Shown here piece after piece: positions 8,775-63,517 of a stretch of DNA of 64,000 bases. A program made the position numbers and the translations under genes. How positions within the stretch are numbered: the stretch's first letter is position 1; each line of letters opens with the position of its first letter. Origin of the DNA: Micromonospora mirobrigensis (GTDB lineage: Bacteria; Actinomycetota; Actinomycetes; Mycobacteriales; Micromonosporaceae); assembly GCF_900091555.1 (NCBI RefSeq), contig NZ_FMCX01000003.1, positions 186,001-250,000 of the forward strand, read 5' to 3'. The notes below the pieces were generated by a model. The model was given only the letters and a program-made list of their open reading frames with translations, had not been told where the DNA came from and searched no databases.

Positions 8775-9830
8775 TCAGTCCCAGGTGTCGGGGCGGGTCG
8801 GGTCGGCCACCTCGGCACCGCTCAGCACGGCCGCCGCGTCGCGGTCGTCGAAGCCCCGGGACGGCCAGCCGAAGTCGACCGTCAGGTGGGCCTTGGGGAA
8901 GCCGAGCAGTTCCATCCGCTTCATCTGGCCCTGCTCGTAGAGAATGGCCGGCCGGCCGTCGATCGTCGTGTTGCCCTGGGCCGACGCGTCGGCCGCCTCG
9001 ATCGCGTAGACGTACGAGACGGTCATGTCCGTGCCCACCTTCCGACCGACGATGGTGAACCGCGCGGTGAGCAGCCTCGGATAGCTGTCGGCGTCGACCT
9101 GGCAGCGGATCGACGCGCCACCCGGCACGGTCCGAAGGCGGACCGGGGCGGCACAGCGGCGCGCCTCGTCCAGCCGCAGCGCCTGCGCCGCCACGGTGAG
9201 CCCGGTGTCCCGGTCGGCCGAGACGGTGGCCCGGGCGTACACCCCGGGTGCCGGTTGCCACTGACGGACCTGGATCGGCAGGCCGTCCACGGTCAGCCGG
9301 ATGGTCCGGCCGTCGAAGCCCGCGTCGCCGGCGAGTTCGGCGACGTCCCAGGGCACTCCCTGGGGGGTGGATTCGCGCAGCGGCCGCGGCGATCGTGCCA
9401 GCTCCACGGTGACGGGCCGCCCGTCGCCGACGTCCAGCCGTACGCTCTCCGTCCCGCCGTCCCCGGACGCCCAGCCCAGGTAGCGGGCCTTGGCGGTGTC
9501 GACGCCGAAGTGCAGCAGCTGCGCGTCGGTGCCGAGCGTCTGCGGGGCGTCGGCGGCGCCCGGCGCGGAACGCACCAGCGGTGGAACCGCGCCGGCCGGC
9601 GCGGCCGGCCCGGCGGCGGTGAACGGCCGCCCCACGCCGGGCAGGCCCGGTCCGACGGCGACGCCGCCGAGCAGCGCCACCAGGGCGAGACCGCCGCCGA
9701 TCAGCGCGTGCCGGCGCCGCCGCCGGCGGCGGCCACCGGCCACCGACCGGGCCACCAGCCGGTCGGTGTCCACCGGCCCCTCGGCGTGGTCCCGGAGGGT
9801 ACGAAGAATGTCCTGATCCAGGTCGGTCAC
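8775..9830 (-). CDS. membrane-anchored partner of ECF sigma factor (putative anti-sigma)
   Basis: 351 residues from GTG 9830, whose GTGA overlaps the stop codon of the sigma-factor gene, implying translational coupling. The N-terminal 33 residues (DLDQDILRTLRDHAEG) are the cytoplasmic part, RRRRRRR is at 34-40, and one transmembrane segment spans about 41-60. About 290 extracytoplasmic residues follow, without a domain I recognise and with two widely spaced Cys. The layout fits anti-sigma-like proteins encoded after SigE-family sigma genes. There is no zinc HxxxCxxC anti-sigma motif, so binding to the sigma factor is inferred from position only. Confidence 0.65.
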   Translation of the reverse strand: MTDLDQDILRTLRDHAEGPVDTDRLVARSVAGGRRRRRRRHALIGGGLALVALLGGVAVGPGLPGVGRPFTAAGPAAPAGAVPPLVRSAPGAADAPQTLGTDAQLLHFGVDTAKARYLGWASGDGGTESVRLDVGDGRPVTVELARSPRPLRESTPQGVPWDVAELAGDAGFDGRTIRLTVDGLPIQVRQWQPAPGVYARATVSADRDTGLTVAAQALRLDEARRCAAPVRLRTVPGGASIRCQVDADSYPRLLTARFTIVGRKVGTDMTVSYVYAIEAADASAQGNTTIDGRPAILYEQGQMKRMELLGFPKAHLTVDFGWPSRGFDDRDAAAVLSGAEVADPTRPDTWD

Positions 9831-49259: not shown

Positions 49260-49547
49260 GTCGCCTCGGTCCTTTCGTGGGTGGTCGCCGGGTCGCCCCC
49301 GCTGCCGTTCGCGGCGGGTCGGGCGTGAACCGGAACCGGTGGCCGATTGACCAGTGTGCCATGGGCTCGCGCCGACCCGGCAGGCGGGCCGCACACGTGG
49401 TCACGGCTGGCTCAACGCTCACCTCCCGGTACGCATTCCCGCCCGCCGGGTGGGCATTCGTCCGGCGCCCGCCGGGTGGTCGTACGGTGGGGGCCGCCGG
49501 CGGATCGGACGGCCCGGCGGCGACCCGACGAGCACGAGGAGACGGGG

Positions 49548-50444
49548 ATGTTCCGCCTGATCGCCACCCGCGGCCTGCCCGCCTCCGGCAAGACCACCTT
49601 TGCCCGCGGCCTGCAACCCGGGGTGGTCCGGATCAACCGGGACGACCTGCGCCGGATGATGCACGGCGAGCGGCTGTTCACCCAGTGGGCCGAGGGGCAG
49701 GTCGCCCGGGCCCAGCGGGCCCAGGTGGAGGCGCTGCTGGCGGCCCGGGTGAGCGTCTGCGTGGACGACACCAACCTGCGCTCCCGGACGCTGCGGGACT
49801 GGGCGGAGCTGGCCGAGCGGTACGGCGCGGCGTTCGAGGTGCACGACTTCACCGACGTGCCGCTGGACGAGTGCCTGCGCCGGGACGCCGCCCGCCCCGA
49901 GACCGACCGGGTCGGCGAGGCGGCCATCCGCCGGCTGCACGAGCGCTACCTGGCCCGCCGGCCGCTGCCGCTGCCGGCGCCGACCGGCCGCGTTGGCGGT
50001 CCCGGCCGGGTGAGCCGCGCCGAGCCGGAACGACCGGACATCGTCCTGGTCGACATCGACGGGACCGTGGCGTTGAACGTCTCCCGCAGCCCGTACGACA
50101 TGACCCGGGTCGGCGAGGACGTCCCCAACGAGGCGGTGATCGCGGCGGTACGGGCCATGCACGCGGCCGGGCACGGGGTGGTCTTCTGCTCCGGCCGGGA
50201 CGCCTCGGCCCGGCCCGCCACGGTGACCTGGCTGGCCCGGCACGTCCGGGTGCCGTACCTGGCGCTGCACCTGCGGGCGCTCGGCGACCAGCGCAAGGAC
50301 GCGATCGTCAAGCGGGAGATCTACGACCGGGAGATCCGGGACCGCTACCGGGTGGTGGGGGTCTTCGACGACCGGCAGCAGGTGGTCCGGATGTGGCGCT
50401 CGCTCGGCCTGACCGTCTTCCAGGTCGCCGAGGGCGACTTCTGA
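49548..50444 (+). CDS. T4 Pnkp-like polynucleotide 5'-kinase / 3'-phosphatase
   Basis: 298 residues, close to T4 Pnkp (301). Residues 1-140: kinase with P-loop GLPASGKT (9-16), the INRDDLRRMM segment with the acidic base, DDTNLRSRTLRDW and a lid with RRDAARPETDRVG. Residues 165-298: HAD phosphatase with VDIDGTVAL (Asp169, Asp171), VVFCSGRDAS, and FDDRQQVVRMWRSLGL followed by GDF, very like the T4 C-terminus. Predicted to heal broken DNA or RNA ends. ATG 49548 has GAGGAG upstream. No ligase gene is adjacent. A GGGGCCCC repeat begins at the stop codon. Confidence 0.9.
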   Translation: MFRLIATRGLPASGKTTFARGLQPGVVRINRDDLRRMMHGERLFTQWAEGQVARAQRAQVEALLAARVSVCVDDTNLRSRTLRDWAELAERYGAAFEVHDFTDVPLDECLRRDAARPETDRVGEAAIRRLHERYLARRPLPLPAPTGRVGGPGRVSRAEPERPDIVLVDIDGTVALNVSRSPYDMTRVGEDVPNEAVIAAVRAMHAAGHGVVFCSGRDASARPATVTWLARHVRVPYLALHLRALGDQRKDAIVKREIYDREIRDRYRVVGVFDDRQQVVRMWRSLGLTVFQVAEGDF

Positions 50445-50503
50445 GGTGTAAGCACGGGCCCCCTGTTAACGCTTTTCGCATAGCAGGGGGCCCCTGTTAA
50501 CAG
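50445..50503 (+). repeat. GGGGCCCC hairpin repeat, copy C
   Basis: Starts directly after the TGA at 50442-50444. The arms GGGCCCCCTG and CAGGGGGCCC pair over 10 bp around TTAACGCTTTTCGCATAG; the second TTAACAG follows. Same sense as the gene before it. Confidence 0.9.
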
Positions 50504-50508
50504 CCGCT

Positions 50509-50545
50509 CCGCCGGCCGGCCACCCGAGGGACGGCCGGCCGGCGG
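50509..50545. terminator. 13-bp hairpin between two repeats
   Basis: Perfect arms CCGCCGGCCGGCC / GGCCGGCCGGCGG with an 11-nt loop, midway between copies C and D and between two convergent genes; probably a bidirectional terminator. Confidence 0.8.
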
Positions 50546-50550
50546 GCAGG

Positions 50551-50609
50551 GTGTTAAGAAGGGGCCCCTGCTCTACCGAATGCGTTAACAGGGGGCCCCT
50601 CCTTGCACC
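50551..50609 (-). repeat. GGGGCCCC hairpin repeat, copy D
   Basis: On the minus strand it starts directly after the TGA of the giant secreted-enzyme gene: AAGGAGGGG, CCCCCTG, TTAACGC, ATTCGGTAGAG, CAGGGGCCCC, TTCTTAACA. It is inverted relative to copy C, so each copy follows the gene on its own strand. Confidence 0.9.
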
Positions 50610-53600
50610 TCAGGCGGCGGGGGCCTCCCCAGGTGCCGCCGCCGTGAGGGCGATCGTCGCCTCGGCACGTACGCCGTTGACGGTGACCGCGAGCAGGACC
50701 TGCGCGCCGGGGCGCAGGGCGGTGAGCTGCCCGGTGGCCGGGTCGAAGCGGGCCACGTGCCACGGCTTCACCCCGCCGGCCGGGCCGACGTGCAGGTTCG
50801 GCGAGCCGGACCAGTCGGCGCTGACCGGCGCGGCCACCGGGACGGTACGCCCGCCGGGCTGGGTGAGCGTCGCGGTGACCCGGGCCGGCGCGCCGACCGG
50901 CACGGTGGCCGGGGCGGTCAGGGTCAGCCGGTCGACGTGGGCGTGGAACTCGGCGGCCACCCACTCCGGCCCCTCGGCGAGCGGGTCGCGGCGGGCCCGG
51001 TCCGCCTCCGGGGGAGTGACCGGGTCGACGCCGAACTCCGTCCAGCCGGTGAAGCCGCCCTGCTCGGCCGGGGTGGACGGGTTCTTGCCGGAGTTGCCGT
51101 TGACCACGTACGGCACGCCGTCGACCCGGTCGGCGTGGAAGGTGCCGACGTGTCCGTTGACCATGAGCGCGCCCTTGCCGGTGCGGTGCTGGAAGTCGGC
51201 CAGCCACTGCTCCACCAGGGCGGCCTCCTTCCGGTCGCCGAGCTGGCTGGCCTTGGCCGGGCTGGGGTCGCGGGGCGGGTGGTGGAAGAGCACGGCCACC
51301 GAGCCGACGGCCGGGTCGGCGGCGGCCGAGTCGAGCGTGTGGCGCAGCAGCTCCACCTGGTCGAAGCCGCTGCCGCGCAGTGAGCCGGCGGAGCTGTTCA
51401 GCGTGACGAACCGGGTGCCGGCGTGGTCGAAGACCCGGGAGGCGTCGCCGAAGGCGGCCCGGAAGTTGTCGATCGGGGCGCCCATCACCTCGTGGTTGCC
51501 GGGGACGTAGTACCAGGGCAGGTCCCCGCCCAGCTCCTCGTCGAGGATCCGCCGGGCCAGGGCGAAGTCCGCCGGATAGGCGGTGTCGACGAAGTCCCCG
51601 TCGATGACCAGGAAGTCCGGCTTCGCCGCCCGGATCTCGCGGAGCGTACGGCGGGCCTGGGCGACCAGATCGCTGTCCGGGTCGGCGGCGACGAACTGGG
51701 CGTCGGACAGCACCGCGAAGCGCCAGGGCGCGCCGTCGACGGTGCCGTCGCGCAGCACCACCCGGTCGGTGCGCTGCGGCTCGGCCGGCGCGTCGACCGT
51801 GGGCGGCACCTTCGCCACCAGGTCGTCGATGACGATCTCGCTGGCGTACTGCTTCGCCGGGTCGGTCTCGGCGACGTAGAACCGGCGCACCCGCACCGGG
51901 TACTGCACGCCGGCCGGGACGGCGAACTCGACGTACCGCCAGCCGGTCCAGGTGACGTACGGGCCGCGGAGCACATGCTGGGTGTCCTGGGCGTCGTGCA
52001 GGTGCAGGCTGGGCCACTCGCCCCGGCCGTTGCCCTTGATCCACATGCCGAACGCCTGGGGCTGGCCGGGTACGTCGATCCAGGCGGGCGGGTCGGCGTA
52101 GGCGGCCCGGGTGCCGGTGGACTGGCCGAAGTCGTACGCCAGCTTCAGGCCGGTGCCGGTGTGGCCCGGCGCGGGGGCGACCGAGCCGGCGGCCCGGGCC
52201 TGGCTGAACCGCCAGGCGGCGGCGTCCTCGAAGCCGGCGACCGGGACGTCGGTCAGCCCGACGGTGACCGGCAGGACGGTGGTGGAGCCGCCGACGTGGG
52301 CGGTGAGCAGGGCGGATCCGCTGTCGTGCAGCGCCCGGACCGACAGGTTGCCGTCGGCGGTGGGGGTGATGTCCAGCAGCTCGTGGTCGTACTCCAGCCG
52401 CAGGTCGGCCGGCTCGATCGGGGCGGTGTTCCCCTCGGCGTCGTAGCCGACCACGCCGAACAGTCCGGTCTCGCCAGCCCGGTTCAACCCGAGCCGGTCC
52501 ACGGTGGCGTCGATCCGGTCCAGCGGCCCGAGGACGGTGAGGCCCAGGGTGCCGCGGGCCTCCCCGCGCCAGGCGGTGACGGTGGTCCGGCCGGCGGCGC
52601 CGGCCCGGAAGACGCCCTCGTCGTCCACCGTGCCCTGCGCGGCCGGGTTGGCCCGCCAGCGGGGTGCGCCGGCGGCCGGCCCGTACGTCTCGTCGTAGCC
52701 GGCGGCGGTGAGCCGGCGGGTGAGGCCGGGGAAGACCCGGTCCGGCCGGCCGCCGCGGATCGGGGCGACGCCGGGCGCGGCGGTCGGGTCGCTCGCCGTC
52801 TCCAGCCAGTAGCCGGTGAGCCGGCCGCTGCCCTGCGGCGCGTAGACGGCCAGTCCGTTGGGGACCGGGCGTTCGGTGCCGTCGGAGGGGGCGTTCTCCA
52901 CCTGCACGGCGGCGGCGCCGGGTTCCCGGGCGAGCAGGGTGGACGAGCCGCCGCCGTCGAGGTTGAGCGCGTTCGCCGCGCCCAGCTCGACCATCATCCG
53001 GCCCATCTCGGTCTGGGTGACGCCCCGGCTGTCCACCGACCGGCCGTCCACGGTCAGCATGACCATCCGGCGGCCGTCGGCGGAGAAGCCGACCGAGGTG
53101 CGCGGGGCGAGCGTCCGGTCGGCGATGTCCTGCACGACACCGTCGCGGACCAGCACGTTGCCGCCGCCGACCGCCGCGCGCAGCGGGCCGCCGTCGGCGG
53201 CCCGCGGTCGCCAGGTCACGTCCACCGGGTCGCCGGGGCGCAGCGCGGCGAGGGCGTCCGCGCCGGCCTCCCGGCCGAGCAGCACGGTGGTCCCGGCGGG
53301 GACCGGACCGTCGCCGGCCGTGTCGGCCACGCTCGCGACCCGACCGCCGGTCACCGTCACCTCGACCGTCCGGGCCGCGCCGCTGACCGCCCGCGCCCGG
53401 GTGTACGTCCCCCAGAGCGGGGTGAACACGCCGATGCCGTCGCGCTGCACCATGTTGTTGAACTGGGTGAGGCCGACCGGTCCGGCGGGCAGCGTGGCGG
53501 TGCCCTCGAAGCCGACCTGGATGATCCGGCCGAGGCCCGCGCCGTCCAGGGCAACGGCGTTGGGGTGGCCGGCGATCGGCGACTGGACCAGCTCGCCCGC

Positions 53601-54098
53601 GCGGATGCCGACGCCCTGGGCGGCGCCGGAGTTGTTGATGTCGAAGAAGTCGCCGTTGACGGCGGCCACCGCCCGGGCCCGGTCCACGGCGGCCCGCAGC
53701 GGCTCGTCCCGGGTGACCGCCCCGGAGTTGACGTAGTCGACCGTCAGGCCGCCGGAGAGGTCGGCGGTGAGCGCGTCGGCGCGCAGCCAGCCGTCGGCGT
53801 CGTACCGGTCGAAGGAGGTCAGGTCCAGGCCGGGGGCGACCGGCCGGGTGGTCTTCGCGGTCTGGAGGCCACTGGCCGGTTCCAGCCCCGTGGTCGGCGC
53901 GGCGGTCGGGGTGGGGCGGCGGGCCAGGGCGACCGGGCCGGCCGGCCCGGAGGAGGCAACCGGCGCGTCCTCGGCGGTGGTGTCGGCGGCGACGGTGGGG
54001 CCGGCCGCGCCGGCGGCCGGGGACGGCCCGGGGAGGGCGAGCAGCGGGGTGAGCAGCAGGACAGCTGCCGCCCGAGCGGATCGACTGCGGGTACGCAT
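50610..54098 (-). CDS. secreted phosphodiester glycosidase / metallophosphatase fusion
   Basis: 1162 residues. A signal peptide of about 31 residues (AAAVLLLTPLLALPGPSPAAG). An N-terminal NAGPA-like phosphodiester glycosidase domain, about 75-440, with AAVNGDFFDINNSG and ANALNLDGGGSSTLL. A bacterial Ig-like (BIG2) stretch about 480-570, a lectin- or CBM-like beta domain about 650-770, and a calcineurin-type metallophosphoesterase about 800-1040 (VLSDAQF, IDGDFVDT, PGNHEV, LFHHPP, MVNGHVGTFHAD). A BIG-like C-terminus. The first domain would remove phosphodiester-linked sugars and the second the phosphate, for example on wall polymers or foreign teichoic acid; this order is inferred. It has an unusual GAAGTTTC/GAAAACTTC region upstream and repeat D directly after it. 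Confidence 0.88.
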   Translation of the reverse strand: MRTRSRSARAAAVLLLTPLLALPGPSPAAGAAGPTVAADTTAEDAPVASSGPAGPVALARRPTPTAAPTTGLEPASGLQTAKTTRPVAPGLDLTSFDRYDADGWLRADALTADLSGGLTVDYVNSGAVTRDEPLRAAVDRARAVAAVNGDFFDINNSGAAQGVGIRAGELVQSPIAGHPNAVALDGAGLGRIIQVGFEGTATLPAGPVGLTQFNNMVQRDGIGVFTPLWGTYTRARAVSGAARTVEVTVTGGRVASVADTAGDGPVPAGTTVLLGREAGADALAALRPGDPVDVTWRPRAADGGPLRAAVGGGNVLVRDGVVQDIADRTLAPRTSVGFSADGRRMVMLTVDGRSVDSRGVTQTEMGRMMVELGAANALNLDGGGSSTLLAREPGAAAVQVENAPSDGTERPVPNGLAVYAPQGSGRLTGYWLETASDPTAAPGVAPIRGGRPDRVFPGLTRRLTAAGYDETYGPAAGAPRWRANPAAQGTVDDEGVFRAGAAGRTTVTAWRGEARGTLGLTVLGPLDRIDATVDRLGLNRAGETGLFGVVGYDAEGNTAPIEPADLRLEYDHELLDITPTADGNLSVRALHDSGSALLTAHVGGSTTVLPVTVGLTDVPVAGFEDAAAWRFSQARAAGSVAPAPGHTGTGLKLAYDFGQSTGTRAAYADPPAWIDVPGQPQAFGMWIKGNGRGEWPSLHLHDAQDTQHVLRGPYVTWTGWRYVEFAVPAGVQYPVRVRRFYVAETDPAKQYASEIVIDDLVAKVPPTVDAPAEPQRTDRVVLRDGTVDGAPWRFAVLSDAQFVAADPDSDLVAQARRTLREIRAAKPDFLVIDGDFVDTAYPADFALARRILDEELGGDLPWYYVPGNHEVMGAPIDNFRAAFGDASRVFDHAGTRFVTLNSSAGSLRGSGFDQVELLRHTLDSAAADPAVGSVAVLFHHPPRDPSPAKASQLGDRKEAALVEQWLADFQHRTGKGALMVNGHVGTFHADRVDGVPYVVNGNSGKNPSTPAEQGGFTGWTEFGVDPVTPPEADRARRDPLAEGPEWVAAEFHAHVDRLTLTAPATVPVGAPARVTATLTQPGGRTVPVAAPVSADWSGSPNLHVGPAGGVKPWHVARFDPATGQLTALRPGAQVLLAVTVNGVRAEATIALTAAAPGEAPAA

Positions 54099-54125
54099 GG
54101 ACGACAGTCAACCCGAGCCTGCACA

Positions 54126-54165
54126 GAAGTTTCAATACCTGGGCGCTTACACGAAGGAAAACTTC
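54126..54165. promoter_or_regulatory. inverted GAAGTTTC/GAAAACTTC region upstream of the giant gene
   Basis: GAAGTTTC (54126-54133) and GAAAACTTC (54157-54165) are near reverse complements, 28-67 nt before the start codon; the latter lies in GAAGGAAAACTTC, itself palindromic at its ends. It is A/T-rich against the surroundings. A regulator site is likely but unidentified. Confidence 0.4.
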
Positions 54166-54198
54166 ATGCGGCCGGGGCGGGACCGAGCGGTGCGTACA

Positions 54199-54240
54199 CG
54201 AGGGAAGGGCACGGCCGCGAACGGCCGTGCCCTTCCCTCG
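54199..54240. terminator. very strong hairpin terminator after rho
   Basis: Perfect 19-bp stem (54199-54217 with 54222-54240; CGAGGGAAGGGCACGGCCG) with tetraloop CGAA, 21 nt beyond the rho stop codon and next to the divergent giant gene's promoter. Confidence 0.9.
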
Positions 54241-60115: not shown

Positions 60116-63100
60116 TCAGTCGGTCGGCGGGAGCGGGGAGCGGCGGCTCCTCGGGAGGCGGAGCACCTCGAACTGGTCCGTCCCGTCGACCAGCGCGGCC
60201 GACGGCGCGGAACGCTGCGCCGGCACGGTGACCCCCGCCGGGCGGGTCGCCGCCGGCACGTCACCCGACGGCCCCGGCCCGGACGAGGTGCCGGCGTCGG
60301 ACGGGGCCGCCTCGGCCCGGACGGCCGGTTCCGCCCCGCCGGCGGGACCGTCCGTCGTGTCGCGGCCCCAGCGCCGCCGCACCGACTCCTTGGCGTACTC
60401 GACCATCGCGTACAGCGTGGGCACCAGCACCAGGGTCAGCAACGTCGAGCTGATCAGGCCGCCGATCACCACGATGGCCAGCGGCCGGGAGATGAAGCCG
60501 CCCTCACCGGTCAGGCCGAACGCCATCGGCAGCAACGCGAAGACGGTCGCCACGGCGGTCATCAGGATCGGCCGCAGCCGGCGCCGGCCGCCCTCGACCA
60601 CCGCCTCCGCCACGCCCATGCCCTGCGCCCGGTACTGGTTGACCAGGTCGAGCAGGACGATCGCGTTGGTCACCACGATGCCGACCAGCATCAGCACGCC
60701 GATCAGCGCCGGCACGCCGAGCGGGGTCCCGGTGACCAGCAGCAGCCCGATCGCGCCGGTCGCCGCGAACGGCACCGAGACCAGCAGGATCAACGCCTGG
60801 GTGATGCTCCGGAACGTGGCCACCATGATCAGGAACACGATGGCGATCGCCGCCAGCACCGCCAGCCGCAGGTCGCCGAAGGCGTCCTTCTGCTGGGCAC
60901 TGGCCCCGCCGACGGTGAACGTCGCCCCCGGCACGTCGATCGCGTCCAGCCGCTGCTGGAGCTCCCGGGTGGTGGCGCCCAGGTTGGAGCCGGTGGCCGT
61001 ACCGGTCACCGAGACGCTGCGCCCGCCGTCGATCCGGGTCACCTGCTGCGGCCCCTGCGCCTCGGTCACCTTCGCGACCGCGCCCAGCTTGACCGGCCCC
61101 ACCGGCAGCGCCTTGAGCTGAGCCACCGTCGCCGGCGGGGTGGCGGTGGTCCGCAGCACCACCTGCCGGGGCACGTCGTCGAAGGTCACCTCGCCCAGCG
61201 GGGTGCCCCGGTACGCCTGCGCGACCAGCTGCCCGACGGCCGCCTCGCTGAGCCCGTACCGGGCCGCGGCGACCCGGTCCACGGCGACGTCCAGCCGGGG
61301 CACCCGGTCGGCCAGGCCGCTGCTCACGTCCGCGACGCCCGGGGTGCCGGCCAGCGCCGACCGGGCGGCCTCGGCGGCCCGGTTCAGCACCTCCGGGTCG
61401 CCCGCCTGGACCACCACCTCCAGCTCGTTGCCGGAGGCGCCGCCCTGGCCCCGCCCGAAGGTCAGCTCGCCGGCCGCCGCGCCGAGCCGGTCGAACTCCC
61501 GGCGCAGCTCCTCGCGTACCTCCGGGGCGTCGCGCTTGCCGTCCAGGGCCAGCGACCAGCTGGCGGTGTCGTTGCCCCCGCCGCCCTCCCACGGCCGGTC
61601 GCTGCCACCGATGCTGACCTGGTACGTCTCGACGCCCGCGGTCCGGGCCAGCACGGCCTCGACCGCCTTGGCCGCCTCGTCGGTGCCGGCCAGTCCGGTG
61701 CCGGCCGGCATCCGCTGGCTGATGTTCAGCGTGTCCTGGCCGGAGTCGTCCAGGAAGTTCGTCTCCAGCTGGCGGGAGAGGCCGAAGGTGCCGAGCAGCA
61801 CCACCAGTCCCACCGCCACGGTCGTCCAGCGGGTCCGCCGGGAGCCGGTGGCGAACCGCACCACCGGCAGGTACGCCCGCTGCAACGGGCTGCGCCGCTC
61901 CCGCTCCTGCGCGGCCCGGCGCGCCGCCGGGTCCTCGACACCGGCCCGCGGAGCCCGCAGGAACCAGTACGCGAGCACCGGCACCACGGTCAGCGAGACC
62001 AGCAGCGAGGCCAGCAGGGCGACCGTGACGGTGATCGCGAACGGCGCGAAGAGCTGCCCGACGAAGCCACCGACCAGGGCGATCGGGGCGAAGACGGCCA
62101 CCGTGGTGAGGGTCGAGGCGGTCACCGCGCCGGCCACCTCGCGGACCGCGCCGAGGATGGCGTCCCGCCTCGGCTCGCCGTAGCCGAGGTGCCGCTTGAT
62201 GTTCTCCAGCACGACGATCGAGTCGTCGACCACCCGGCCGACCGCGATGGTCAGCGCGCCCAGGGTGAGCAGGTTCAACGAGTAGTCACCGGCCCAGAGG
62301 GCGATCAGGGCGACCAGCACCGACAGCGGGATGGAGACCGCGGTGACCAGGGTGGAGCGCACCGACAGCAGGAAGACCAGGATGACCACCACGGCCATCA
62401 GCAGGCCGAGCAGCCCCTCGGTGGTCAGGCTCTCGATGGACCGCTCGATGAACGGGGCCTGGTCGAAGACCACGGCGAGGTCGGCGCCACCGGCGTCCTT
62501 CAGCTCGGCGAGCCGGTCCCGGATCTCGTGCGAGATGGTCACCGCGTTGCCGTCCGGGGCGGCGGTGACGGCGAGGCCCAGGCTGGGCCGGCCGTTGGTA
62601 CGGGTGATCGCGGTGGCCGGGGCGAGTTCCTCGGTGACGGTGGCCACCGACCCGAGGGTCACCGCCCGGGCGGGCGCGCGGCGCGCCGGCGGGGCGGCGA
62701 CCGGCTTGACCGCCGGCTTCCCGGCGACCGGCTTGACGGCCGGCGGCCGGGGCGGGGCGGGTCGCGCGGGCGGCGTCACGACCTTGAGGACCAGCCCGCG
62801 CAGCTCCTCCGCCGAGCGGATCGGGCCACCCACCTGCACCGGCAGGGAGCGGCTGCCGTCGGTGACCGTGCCGGCGGGGATCGCCACGCCGTTGCTGCGG
62901 AGCAGCTCGGCGATGGCGGTGGGCTCGATCCGGTTCGCGGCGAGCTTCGCCGGGTCCGGCCGGACCACCACGATCGGGTCCCGGGCACCGGTCAGCGCCA
63001 CCGAGCGGACGCCCTCGATCGCCTCCAGCTCCGGCAGGACCGACCGGCGCAGCCGCTCGGCGAGGGCCTGCTCGTCCCCGTCGCCGGAGGCGGCCAGCAC

Positions 63101-63517
63101 CACGGCCGGCAGGTCGTCGGTGGAGCCGGCGAGCACCTGCGGCTCGACGCCGGCCGGGAGCTGACCGGCGATCCGGCCCAGCGCGGCCTGCATCTTGTTG
63201 ACCACGTCGTCCACGTCGGTGCCGAACGTGTACTGCACCACGACGGTGGCCGAGCCCTCCCGCGAGGTGGAGGTGATCTTCTCCAGCCCCGGGACGCCCT
63301 GGAGGCTGTTCTCGATCGGCTCGGTCACCTGCGCCTCGACCACCTCGGGCGAGGCGCCGGGCTGGACCGCCACGACGAACGCGGCGGGCAGCTCCAACGA
63401 GGGCAGGAGCTGCTGCTTCAACGACGGTACGGCGAACGCCCCGAACGCCGCGGTCACCACCGCGATGAGGGCGACGAGCCCCCGGTTGGCGAGGCTGGAT
63501 CTGGCGAGCAGCGACAT
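60116..63517 (-). CDS. RND-family efflux pump (AcrB/SwrC-like)
   Basis: 1133 residues with two halves of six membrane segments each, and porter-like loops. The proton-relay acidic pair is in TIAVGRVVDDSIVVLENIKR (DD in helix 4), and GIVVTNAIVLLDLVNQ marks helix 10. It belongs to the HAE-1/AcrB-like class, related to the Gram-positive SwrC, not the MmpL class. A Pro/Ala/Lys-rich insert (about 250-285) lies in the first porter loop, and the last 100 residues are a disordered tail. No adaptor or outer-membrane gene is adjacent. ATG 63517. Substrate unknown; toxic lipid or drug export is likely. Confidence 0.9.
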   Translation of the reverse strand: MSLLARSSLANRGLVALIAVVTAAFGAFAVPSLKQQLLPSLELPAAFVVAVQPGASPEVVEAQVTEPIENSLQGVPGLEKITSTSREGSATVVVQYTFGTDVDDVVNKMQAALGRIAGQLPAGVEPQVLAGSTDDLPAVVLAASGDGDEQALAERLRRSVLPELEAIEGVRSVALTGARDPIVVVRPDPAKLAANRIEPTAIAELLRSNGVAIPAGTVTDGSRSLPVQVGGPIRSAEELRGLVLKVVTPPARPAPPRPPAVKPVAGKPAVKPVAAPPARRAPARAVTLGSVATVTEELAPATAITRTNGRPSLGLAVTAAPDGNAVTISHEIRDRLAELKDAGGADLAVVFDQAPFIERSIESLTTEGLLGLLMAVVVILVFLLSVRSTLVTAVSIPLSVLVALIALWAGDYSLNLLTLGALTIAVGRVVDDSIVVLENIKRHLGYGEPRRDAILGAVREVAGAVTASTLTTVAVFAPIALVGGFVGQLFAPFAITVTVALLASLLVSLTVVPVLAYWFLRAPRAGVEDPAARRAAQERERRSPLQRAYLPVVRFATGSRRTRWTTVAVGLVVLLGTFGLSRQLETNFLDDSGQDTLNISQRMPAGTGLAGTDEAAKAVEAVLARTAGVETYQVSIGGSDRPWEGGGGNDTASWSLALDGKRDAPEVREELRREFDRLGAAAGELTFGRGQGGASGNELEVVVQAGDPEVLNRAAEAARSALAGTPGVADVSSGLADRVPRLDVAVDRVAAARYGLSEAAVGQLVAQAYRGTPLGEVTFDDVPRQVVLRTTATPPATVAQLKALPVGPVKLGAVAKVTEAQGPQQVTRIDGGRSVSVTGTATGSNLGATTRELQQRLDAIDVPGATFTVGGASAQQKDAFGDLRLAVLAAIAIVFLIMVATFRSITQALILLVSVPFAATGAIGLLLVTGTPLGVPALIGVLMLVGIVVTNAIVLLDLVNQYRAQGMGVAEAVVEGGRRRLRPILMTAVATVFALLPMAFGLTGEGGFISRPLAIVVIGGLISSTLLTLVLVPTLYAMVEYAKESVRRRWGRDTTDGPAGGAEPAVRAEAAPSDAGTSSGPGPSGDVPAATRPAGVTVPAQRSAPSAALVDGTDQFEVLRLPRSRRSPLPPTD

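Follow-up and report, generated by a model that had tools for sequence, protein, structure and literature searches.

The locus at positions 50610–54098 of a 64,000-nucleotide stretch of Micromonospora mirobrigensis DNA (contig NZ_FMCX01000003.1; the whole stretch is referred to below as the window) raises the question of what a single protein would do with two hydrolase domains, a NAGPA-type phosphodiester glycosidase and a calcineurin-like metallophosphoesterase. The initial annotation gave no strand for this gene. On the minus strand the interval is an unbroken open reading frame (ORF) of 1162 amino acids with an ATG start codon and the stop codon included, and the plus-strand reading of the same interval contains a stop. 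The ORF is not a chance occurrence, because each of the 80 homologous loci retained for comparison holds one matching ORF. The presence of both domains in one protein, and in the order read by the initial annotation, was confirmed by domain search and structure prediction, with the Pfam matches and the structural alignments of an AlphaFold2 model in agreement. The function that we favour, and to which we give an even chance, is that of a secreted two-enzyme exo-hydrolase for envelope polymers linked through sugar-1-phosphates.

The AlphaFold2 model was obtained from a 47-sequence alignment and has a mean predicted local distance difference test score of 77.4 and a predicted template modelling score of 0.68, with low-confidence stretches at residues 1–75, 152–162, 173–177, 443–449, 777–785, 943–954 and 1158–1162. 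Matches found with Foldseek were re-examined with VIA-align 2. Residues 54–422 (52833–53939, minus strand) are predicted to form a NAGPA (DUF2233) domain. The Pfam family PF09992 matches with an E-value of 4.8e-39 and 134.7 bits (cut-off 25), the best stretch spanning residues 244–419. The model aligns with the DUF2233/NAGPA structure 3ohg over residues 54–422 with a Z score of 24.6 and 3.1 Å over 251 residues, and with guinea-pig NAGPA (6pku) over residues 89–421 with a Z score of 19.1 and 3.1 Å over 217 residues. The sequence matches in the Protein Data Bank are divided accordingly, DUF2233/NAGPA proteins matching the first half of the protein and GpdQ and its kin the second. In these alignments the NGxFFD/NGGYFD, RT, DG and DGGGS stretches are common to the fusion protein and vertebrate NAGPA. 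Among the 81 aligned sequences (the query and its 80 relatives), N148-G-D-F-F152, R333, T334, D351, R353, N379 and D381-GGG-S385 are identical throughout and E364 is kept in 80. The domain may hydrolyze sugar-1-phosphate diesters.

The calcineurin-like metallophosphoesterase is predicted to span approximately residues 788–1053 (50940–51737, minus strand). The Pfam family Metallophos (PF00149) matches residues 793–983 with an E-value of 1.5e-10 and 42.3 bits (cut-off 21.5), and approximately residues 788–1093 of the model align with GpdQ, Rv0805 and purple acid phosphatases with Z scores of 20–22, the GpdQ alignment (2zo9) yielding a Z score of 22.3 and 2.9 Å over 226 residues. Metallophosphoesterases canonically carry the motifs DxH, GD, GNHD/E, H and GHxH. 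The motif residues of the fusion protein are D799xQ801, D835xxD838, N868-H869-E870, H939 and H983-V-G985, followed by H988, and D799, Q801, D835, D838, N868, H869, E870, H939 and H983 are identical in all 81 sequences. Motifs II–IV of the five canonical metal motifs are present, whereas motifs I and V deviate in 81 of 81: motif I reads DxQ rather than DxH, and motif V reads HVG, so that the position of the second His of GHxH, two residues after H983, is occupied by Gly. Residue 988, three past Gly985, is His in 76 sequences, Asp in two, Asn in two and Ser in one. In this superfamily the His of motif I and the His that is missing here from motif V ligate one and the same metal; thus, one metal site is either rebuilt around Q801, D838 or H988, or weakened. 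Because motif V lacks its second His and motif I is DxQ, phosphoesterase activity is less certain, and the altered motifs, as read from the sequence, constitute the main caution against both halves of the protein being active and count against the function proposed above. The key catalytic residues that the initial annotation presupposed in both domains are kept in the NAGPA signature and altered in these two phosphoesterase motifs. The uniform replacement of GHxH by HVG poses a biochemical question, namely whether the phosphoesterase half is active and with which metals. ADPRibase-Mn was considered as a possible precedent for a DxQ metal ligand and was set aside; terms for such a ligand were absent from PMC3407115, a paper on that enzyme.

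The remainder of the protein is rich in β-structure in the model. Residues 423–614 (52257–52832, minus strand) form a β-rich stretch presumed to be Ig-like, for which the Pfam family Big_2 gives a match below the cut-off at residues 481–514 (E-value 0.73). The stretch is followed by a predicted jellyroll domain, residues 614–774 (51777–52259, minus strand), which aligns with the FlaA1 sheath protein 9cyn with a Z score of 18.7 and 3.6 Å over 160 residues and may be a carbohydrate-binding part. NCBIfam returned weak matches far under the cut-off, the top one being a FlaA1-type model at residues 674–733 with an E-value of 0.031. The C-terminal part, approximately residues 1054–1162 (50613–50939, minus strand), is β-rich in the model and likewise presumed Ig-like; neither a membrane anchor nor a sortase anchor was seen there by eye. 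At the N-terminus, approximately residues 1–30 (54009–54098, minus strand) resemble a signal peptide by eye, with an Arg-rich segment, a hydrophobic run and small residues, and the protein is therefore probably exported. The lectin-like and Ig-like parts and the export claimed by the initial annotation are thus upheld as far as the jellyroll and the signal-like start are concerned, the Ig-like identity being a presumption from the model and the sub-threshold Pfam match.

A genome scan matched at least 588 stretches, of which at least 572 encode a relative, and the best 80 loci were kept, some of them running off contig ends. Their matching ORFs share 62.6–87.1% identity with the query, and 78 of the 80 cover at least 90% of it. 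The top relatives among these best 80 are Micromonospora proteins (up to 87.1%), then proteins of Plantactinospora, Asanoa and Phytohabitans, and then those of Nonomuraea, Streptosporangium, Microtetraspora and Thermocatellispora at 62.6–66.1%. A NAGPA match is present in 55 of 101 genomes (the M. mirobrigensis genome and 100 relatives) and in 42 of the 61 genomes of the genus. By a hand count that considers ORF length and the NAGPA match only, 35 of the 61 have such a match, at an E-value of 3.2e-36 or lower, in an ORF of at least 1000 amino acids. Five genomes (G002, G015, G024, G042 and G044) contain NAGPA ORFs of 442–481 amino acids only, and G014 and G049 contain NAGPA ORFs of 583 and 913 amino acids, respectively. 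The present gene is the only NAGPA match in its own genome. Seven plasmid records contain a match; in two, one of them encoding the Streptomyces clavuligerus protein described below, it spans at least 80% of the query. An 11.85-Mb Nonomuraea record (NZ_LT559118.1) stands among the plasmids and, judging by its size, is probably a chromosome. The fusion protein is a common actinobacterial protein whose architecture has already been described.

PMC11488536 places ShfP (YvnB) in a very large radiation of calcineurin-like phosphoesterases that are secreted or anchored in the membrane and are joined to domains for adhesion and carbohydrate binding; members of the radiation may carry a further NAGPA fusion, and the architecture class is therefore not new. 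The same paper states that calcineurin-like phosphoesterases have five conserved motifs, that the formation of extracellular glycerol by ShfP during sporulation of B. subtilis depends on its phosphoesterase residues, that lipoteichoic acid is its likely substrate, and that Ala substitutions in the ShfP motifs, including H1114 together with H1116, abolish complementation partly or wholly. ShfP as described there is an exported multidomain protein combining a calcineurin-like phosphoesterase with Ig-like modules, as the fusion protein is predicted to be. In ShfP a lamin-tail domain accompanies seven Ig domains and motif V contains H1114/H1116, whereas the fusion protein has an N-terminal NAGPA domain, a jellyroll and the HVG motif. 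With regard to orthology with ShfP, no lamin-tail match was found in Pfam at E-values up to 1, and a NAGPA domain is found instead. The architecture fits the ShfP-like radiation by domain content alone, with export judged by eye and the Ig parts presumed.

The modelled fold and signature stretches are shared with NAGPA/DUF2233 proteins such as the mannose-6-phosphate uncovering enzyme and BACOVA_00430 (3ohg), from which the fusion protein differs in being a bacterial multidomain protein with a phosphoesterase. GpdQ, Rv0805 and the purple acid phosphatases share the phosphoesterase fold at 15–20% identity in the structural alignments, and it is in the fusion protein that motifs I and V are altered. 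A Streptomyces clavuligerus protein named phosphodiester glycosidase family protein (WP_003959332.1) shares 56.9% identity with the query along 92% of its length and has the same motifs, HVG included, although its gene is plasmid-borne, unlike the one described here. A 39.8%-identical homologue covering 91% of the protein is encoded at positions 9001–12180 of L084, a faecal contig labelled UNVERIFIED "Bacteriophage sp.", which is perhaps bacterial DNA rather than the source of a phage gene. The protein is a new instance of a published architecture with one unexplained feature, HVG, together with a conserved element upstream of its gene; the open-access literature searched contained no report of the actinobacterial clade, of the HVG motif or of this element.

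The upstream element, TGAAGTTTTCCTTC-N17-TTGAAACTT (54127–54166, minus strand), emerged from the comparison of upstream regions and is a possible operator or activator site. It overlaps a promoter-like arrangement, TTGAAA-N18-TTGACT-N7-ATG (54096–54135, minus strand), whose spacing suggests a promoter. The general layout is TGAARTTTTC, followed by TTGAAACTT 31–32 nucleotides downstream and by TTGA(C/G)T, which stands a few bases ahead of the start codon. Four of the 80 loci had too little upstream sequence and were dropped; the strict form occurs in 61 of the remaining 76 and is lacking in 15. It recurs on neither strand elsewhere in the 80 loci, which total 1,345,354 bases. The TTGAAA…TTGA(C/G)T…start part occurs in 72 of the 76, with one other match, in the dropped locus L052, near that locus's own gene start. 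These counts are descriptive, since the patterns were written after the sequences had been viewed and the loci are related. A shorter pattern, searched in a single form, has one match in the 6.17-Mb genome of M. mirobrigensis, located at the fusion gene, and none in a reversed control. The element persists in loci where different genes flank the fusion gene and hence belongs to the fusion gene itself.

In all 42 loci whose contigs extend to rpmE, the fusion gene is followed by rpmE and then prfA. It is preceded by rho in 38 of them; the other four (L016, L022, L034 and L040) start within 470 nucleotides of the match, the contig end being too near to tell. These syntenic loci come from Micromonospora, Plantactinospora and Phytohabitans. 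A convergent, polynucleotide-kinase-like gene intervenes in 34 of the 42 and was not found in eight; in the window it lies at 49347–50444 (plus strand) and the family search identified AAA_33 and a PNKP-type phosphatase in its product. The search for the other eight window neighbours tested gave no match in the three Asanoa loci or in the Streptosporangiaceae loci. Of 33 loci outside the rho context, some of them short, 17 contain members of an amidohydrolase/M20-peptidase ORF cluster, 14 a glycoside hydrolase family 2 glycosidase, 12 an ORF that by eye resembles EF-Tu, nine a sugar-type ATP-binding cassette permease and eight a solute-binding protein, the family names being those of representatives in L051. 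In L053 the next ORF starts 27 nucleotides past the fusion gene, a spacing that would allow an operon. No Pfam match at an E-value of 0.01 was obtained for three ORFs lying upstream of the fusion gene in Nonomuraea and a close relative (L051:4476–6632, in which the frame may be wrong, L053:4226–6640 and L053:1967–4207). As the loci outside the rho context are mostly from one genus, they provide weak evidence for a carbohydrate-related role.

In the exo-hydrolase function favoured here, the jellyroll and Ig-like parts would keep the enzyme on the polymer while the NAGPA domain would cleave the bond between the sugar C1, oxygen and phosphate, so that a sugar would be set free and the next unit would end in a phosphomonoester. 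That phosphate would then be stripped by the metallophosphoesterase, which might alternatively cut the neighbouring alcohol-phosphate ester, and the cycle would repeat. Sequential action, as the initial annotation proposed, would be chemically sensible, because the phosphomonoester left after NAGPA cleavage would be a suitable target for a phosphatase. In Micromonospora the enzyme might serve in the turnover or scavenging of wall glycopolymers, either its own or those of lysed cells, and the genome does contain one gene for a TagF-like glycerophosphotransferase. If the two domains alternate, a single protein could dismantle sugar-1-phosphate glycopolymers and might become a tool for wall-polymer analysis.

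Several observations, in addition to the altered metal motifs, tell against this function. A TagF-family match is found in all 61 genomes of the genus (weak and partial in G047, 3.9e-8), 19 of which have no NAGPA match, so that co-occurrence cannot discriminate. The product of TagF is a polyol-phosphate polymer and not necessarily one of sugar-1-phosphates. A Stealth sugar-1-phosphate transferase was not detected in the M. mirobrigensis genome by a search that was also blank in every control genome. The families of the tested window neighbours are not those of wall-polymer synthesis, with the exception of a penicillin-binding protein about 7 kb away, and the Nonomuraea neighbourhood may reflect nothing beyond shared ancestry. 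The open-access literature searched held no biochemistry on this clade. A more elaborate form of the proposal appears unlikely to hold in full. In it, the metal site of the clade, which now has Gln801 and Gly985, would have been rebuilt by recruiting His988 or Asp838, the phosphoesterase and NAGPA domains would act by turns in a processive, two-stroke exo-cleavage of poly(glycosyl-1-phosphate), and a dedicated promoter element that travels with the gene would control it.

It is conceivable, though somewhat unlikely, that NAGPA alone is catalytic and that the calcineurin-like domain, its full capacity for metal binding lost, acts as a phosphate- or polymer-binding module. The invariant Gly in motif V, the DxQ of motif I and the variability of residue 988 are consistent with such a loss, as are the motif V sequences of more remote homologues, AHVGVFH in S. 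clavuligerus and AHAGVFH in the faecal-contig protein. However, the remaining phosphoesterase motif residues are identical in all 81 sequences, whereas an inactive domain should have diverged, and the C-terminal phosphoesterase of a NAGPA protein on a Metabacillus plasmid has, by eye, DTQ beside an intact GHDH, so that DxQ by itself is no mark of inactivity.

Phosphate acquisition, which the initial annotation had also suggested, would make the protein a PhoD-like exoenzyme of phosphate starvation that frees phosphate from teichoic acids or other phosphodiesters. The resemblance of the fold to GpdQ and purple acid phosphatases fits this role, for which PMC11488536 gives secreted PhoD as a precedent, but a tandem PHO-box-like pattern occurs in none of the 76 upstream regions (a weak test, with a crude pattern rather than a matrix) and the upstream element, matched once in the genome by the pattern searched, does not resemble that of a broad regulon; we regard the role as distinctly unlikely. 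Still less probable is a developmental, ShfP-like enzyme that acts on the wall as cells sporulate or differentiate and frees from it a small molecule, for instance glycerol. ShfP, whose calcineurin-like domain is probably from the same radiation, does so in B. subtilis, a dedicated conserved promoter would fit a timed gene, and the plasmid-borne S. clavuligerus homologue lies between genes for a SigB/SigF/SigG-type sigma factor and a SpoIIE-type phosphatase (L082, 6250–14489); yet ShfP, as PMC11488536 describes it, has a lamin tail and is without NAGPA, and the same paper finds ShfP-like phosphoesterases not to be specifically correlated with sporulation. An antibacterial effector directed at the walls of competitors, the tool against other bacteria of the initial annotation, would find a parallel in the combination of NAGPA with TelC-type domains in Bacillota, for which PMC12419801 proposes a conflict role. 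We consider it very improbable, as the location of the gene between rho and rpmE/prfA in Micromonospora and its near kin speaks against an accessory weapon, and as architecture and sequence are conserved among the best 80 of at least 572 relatives.

Several other features of the window were noted. A perfect hairpin with 19-nucleotide arms follows rho (54199–54240, minus strand, by eye) and is probably the rho terminator; a scan for sigma-70 and terminator consensus listed no site, this hairpin included. An L31-Actinobacteria ribosomal protein leader (RF03158, 52 bits) lies upstream of rpmE at 49283–49339 (minus strand). Between the convergent fusion and polynucleotide-kinase-like genes, positions 50441–50613 contain an inverted repeat with 81-nucleotide arms that are 81% complementary and units spaced by 31 nucleotides. 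Its sequence GTTAACAGGGGNCC occurs 87 times in the M. mirobrigensis genome (36 forward and 51 reverse, with 0 in a reversed control), ten pairs being exactly 31 nucleotides apart by hand count, and GTTAACAGGGG occurs only four times across loci L002–L045; the repeat looks like a dispersed element of the repetitive extragenic palindromic type. Finally, an AcrB-type resistance-nodulation-division efflux protein (PF00873, 674.7 bits) is encoded at 60116–63517 (minus strand) near a major facilitator superfamily transporter. Pumps of the AcrB type are unusual in actinobacteria, and sequences related to this one occupy the corresponding position in many of the related loci.

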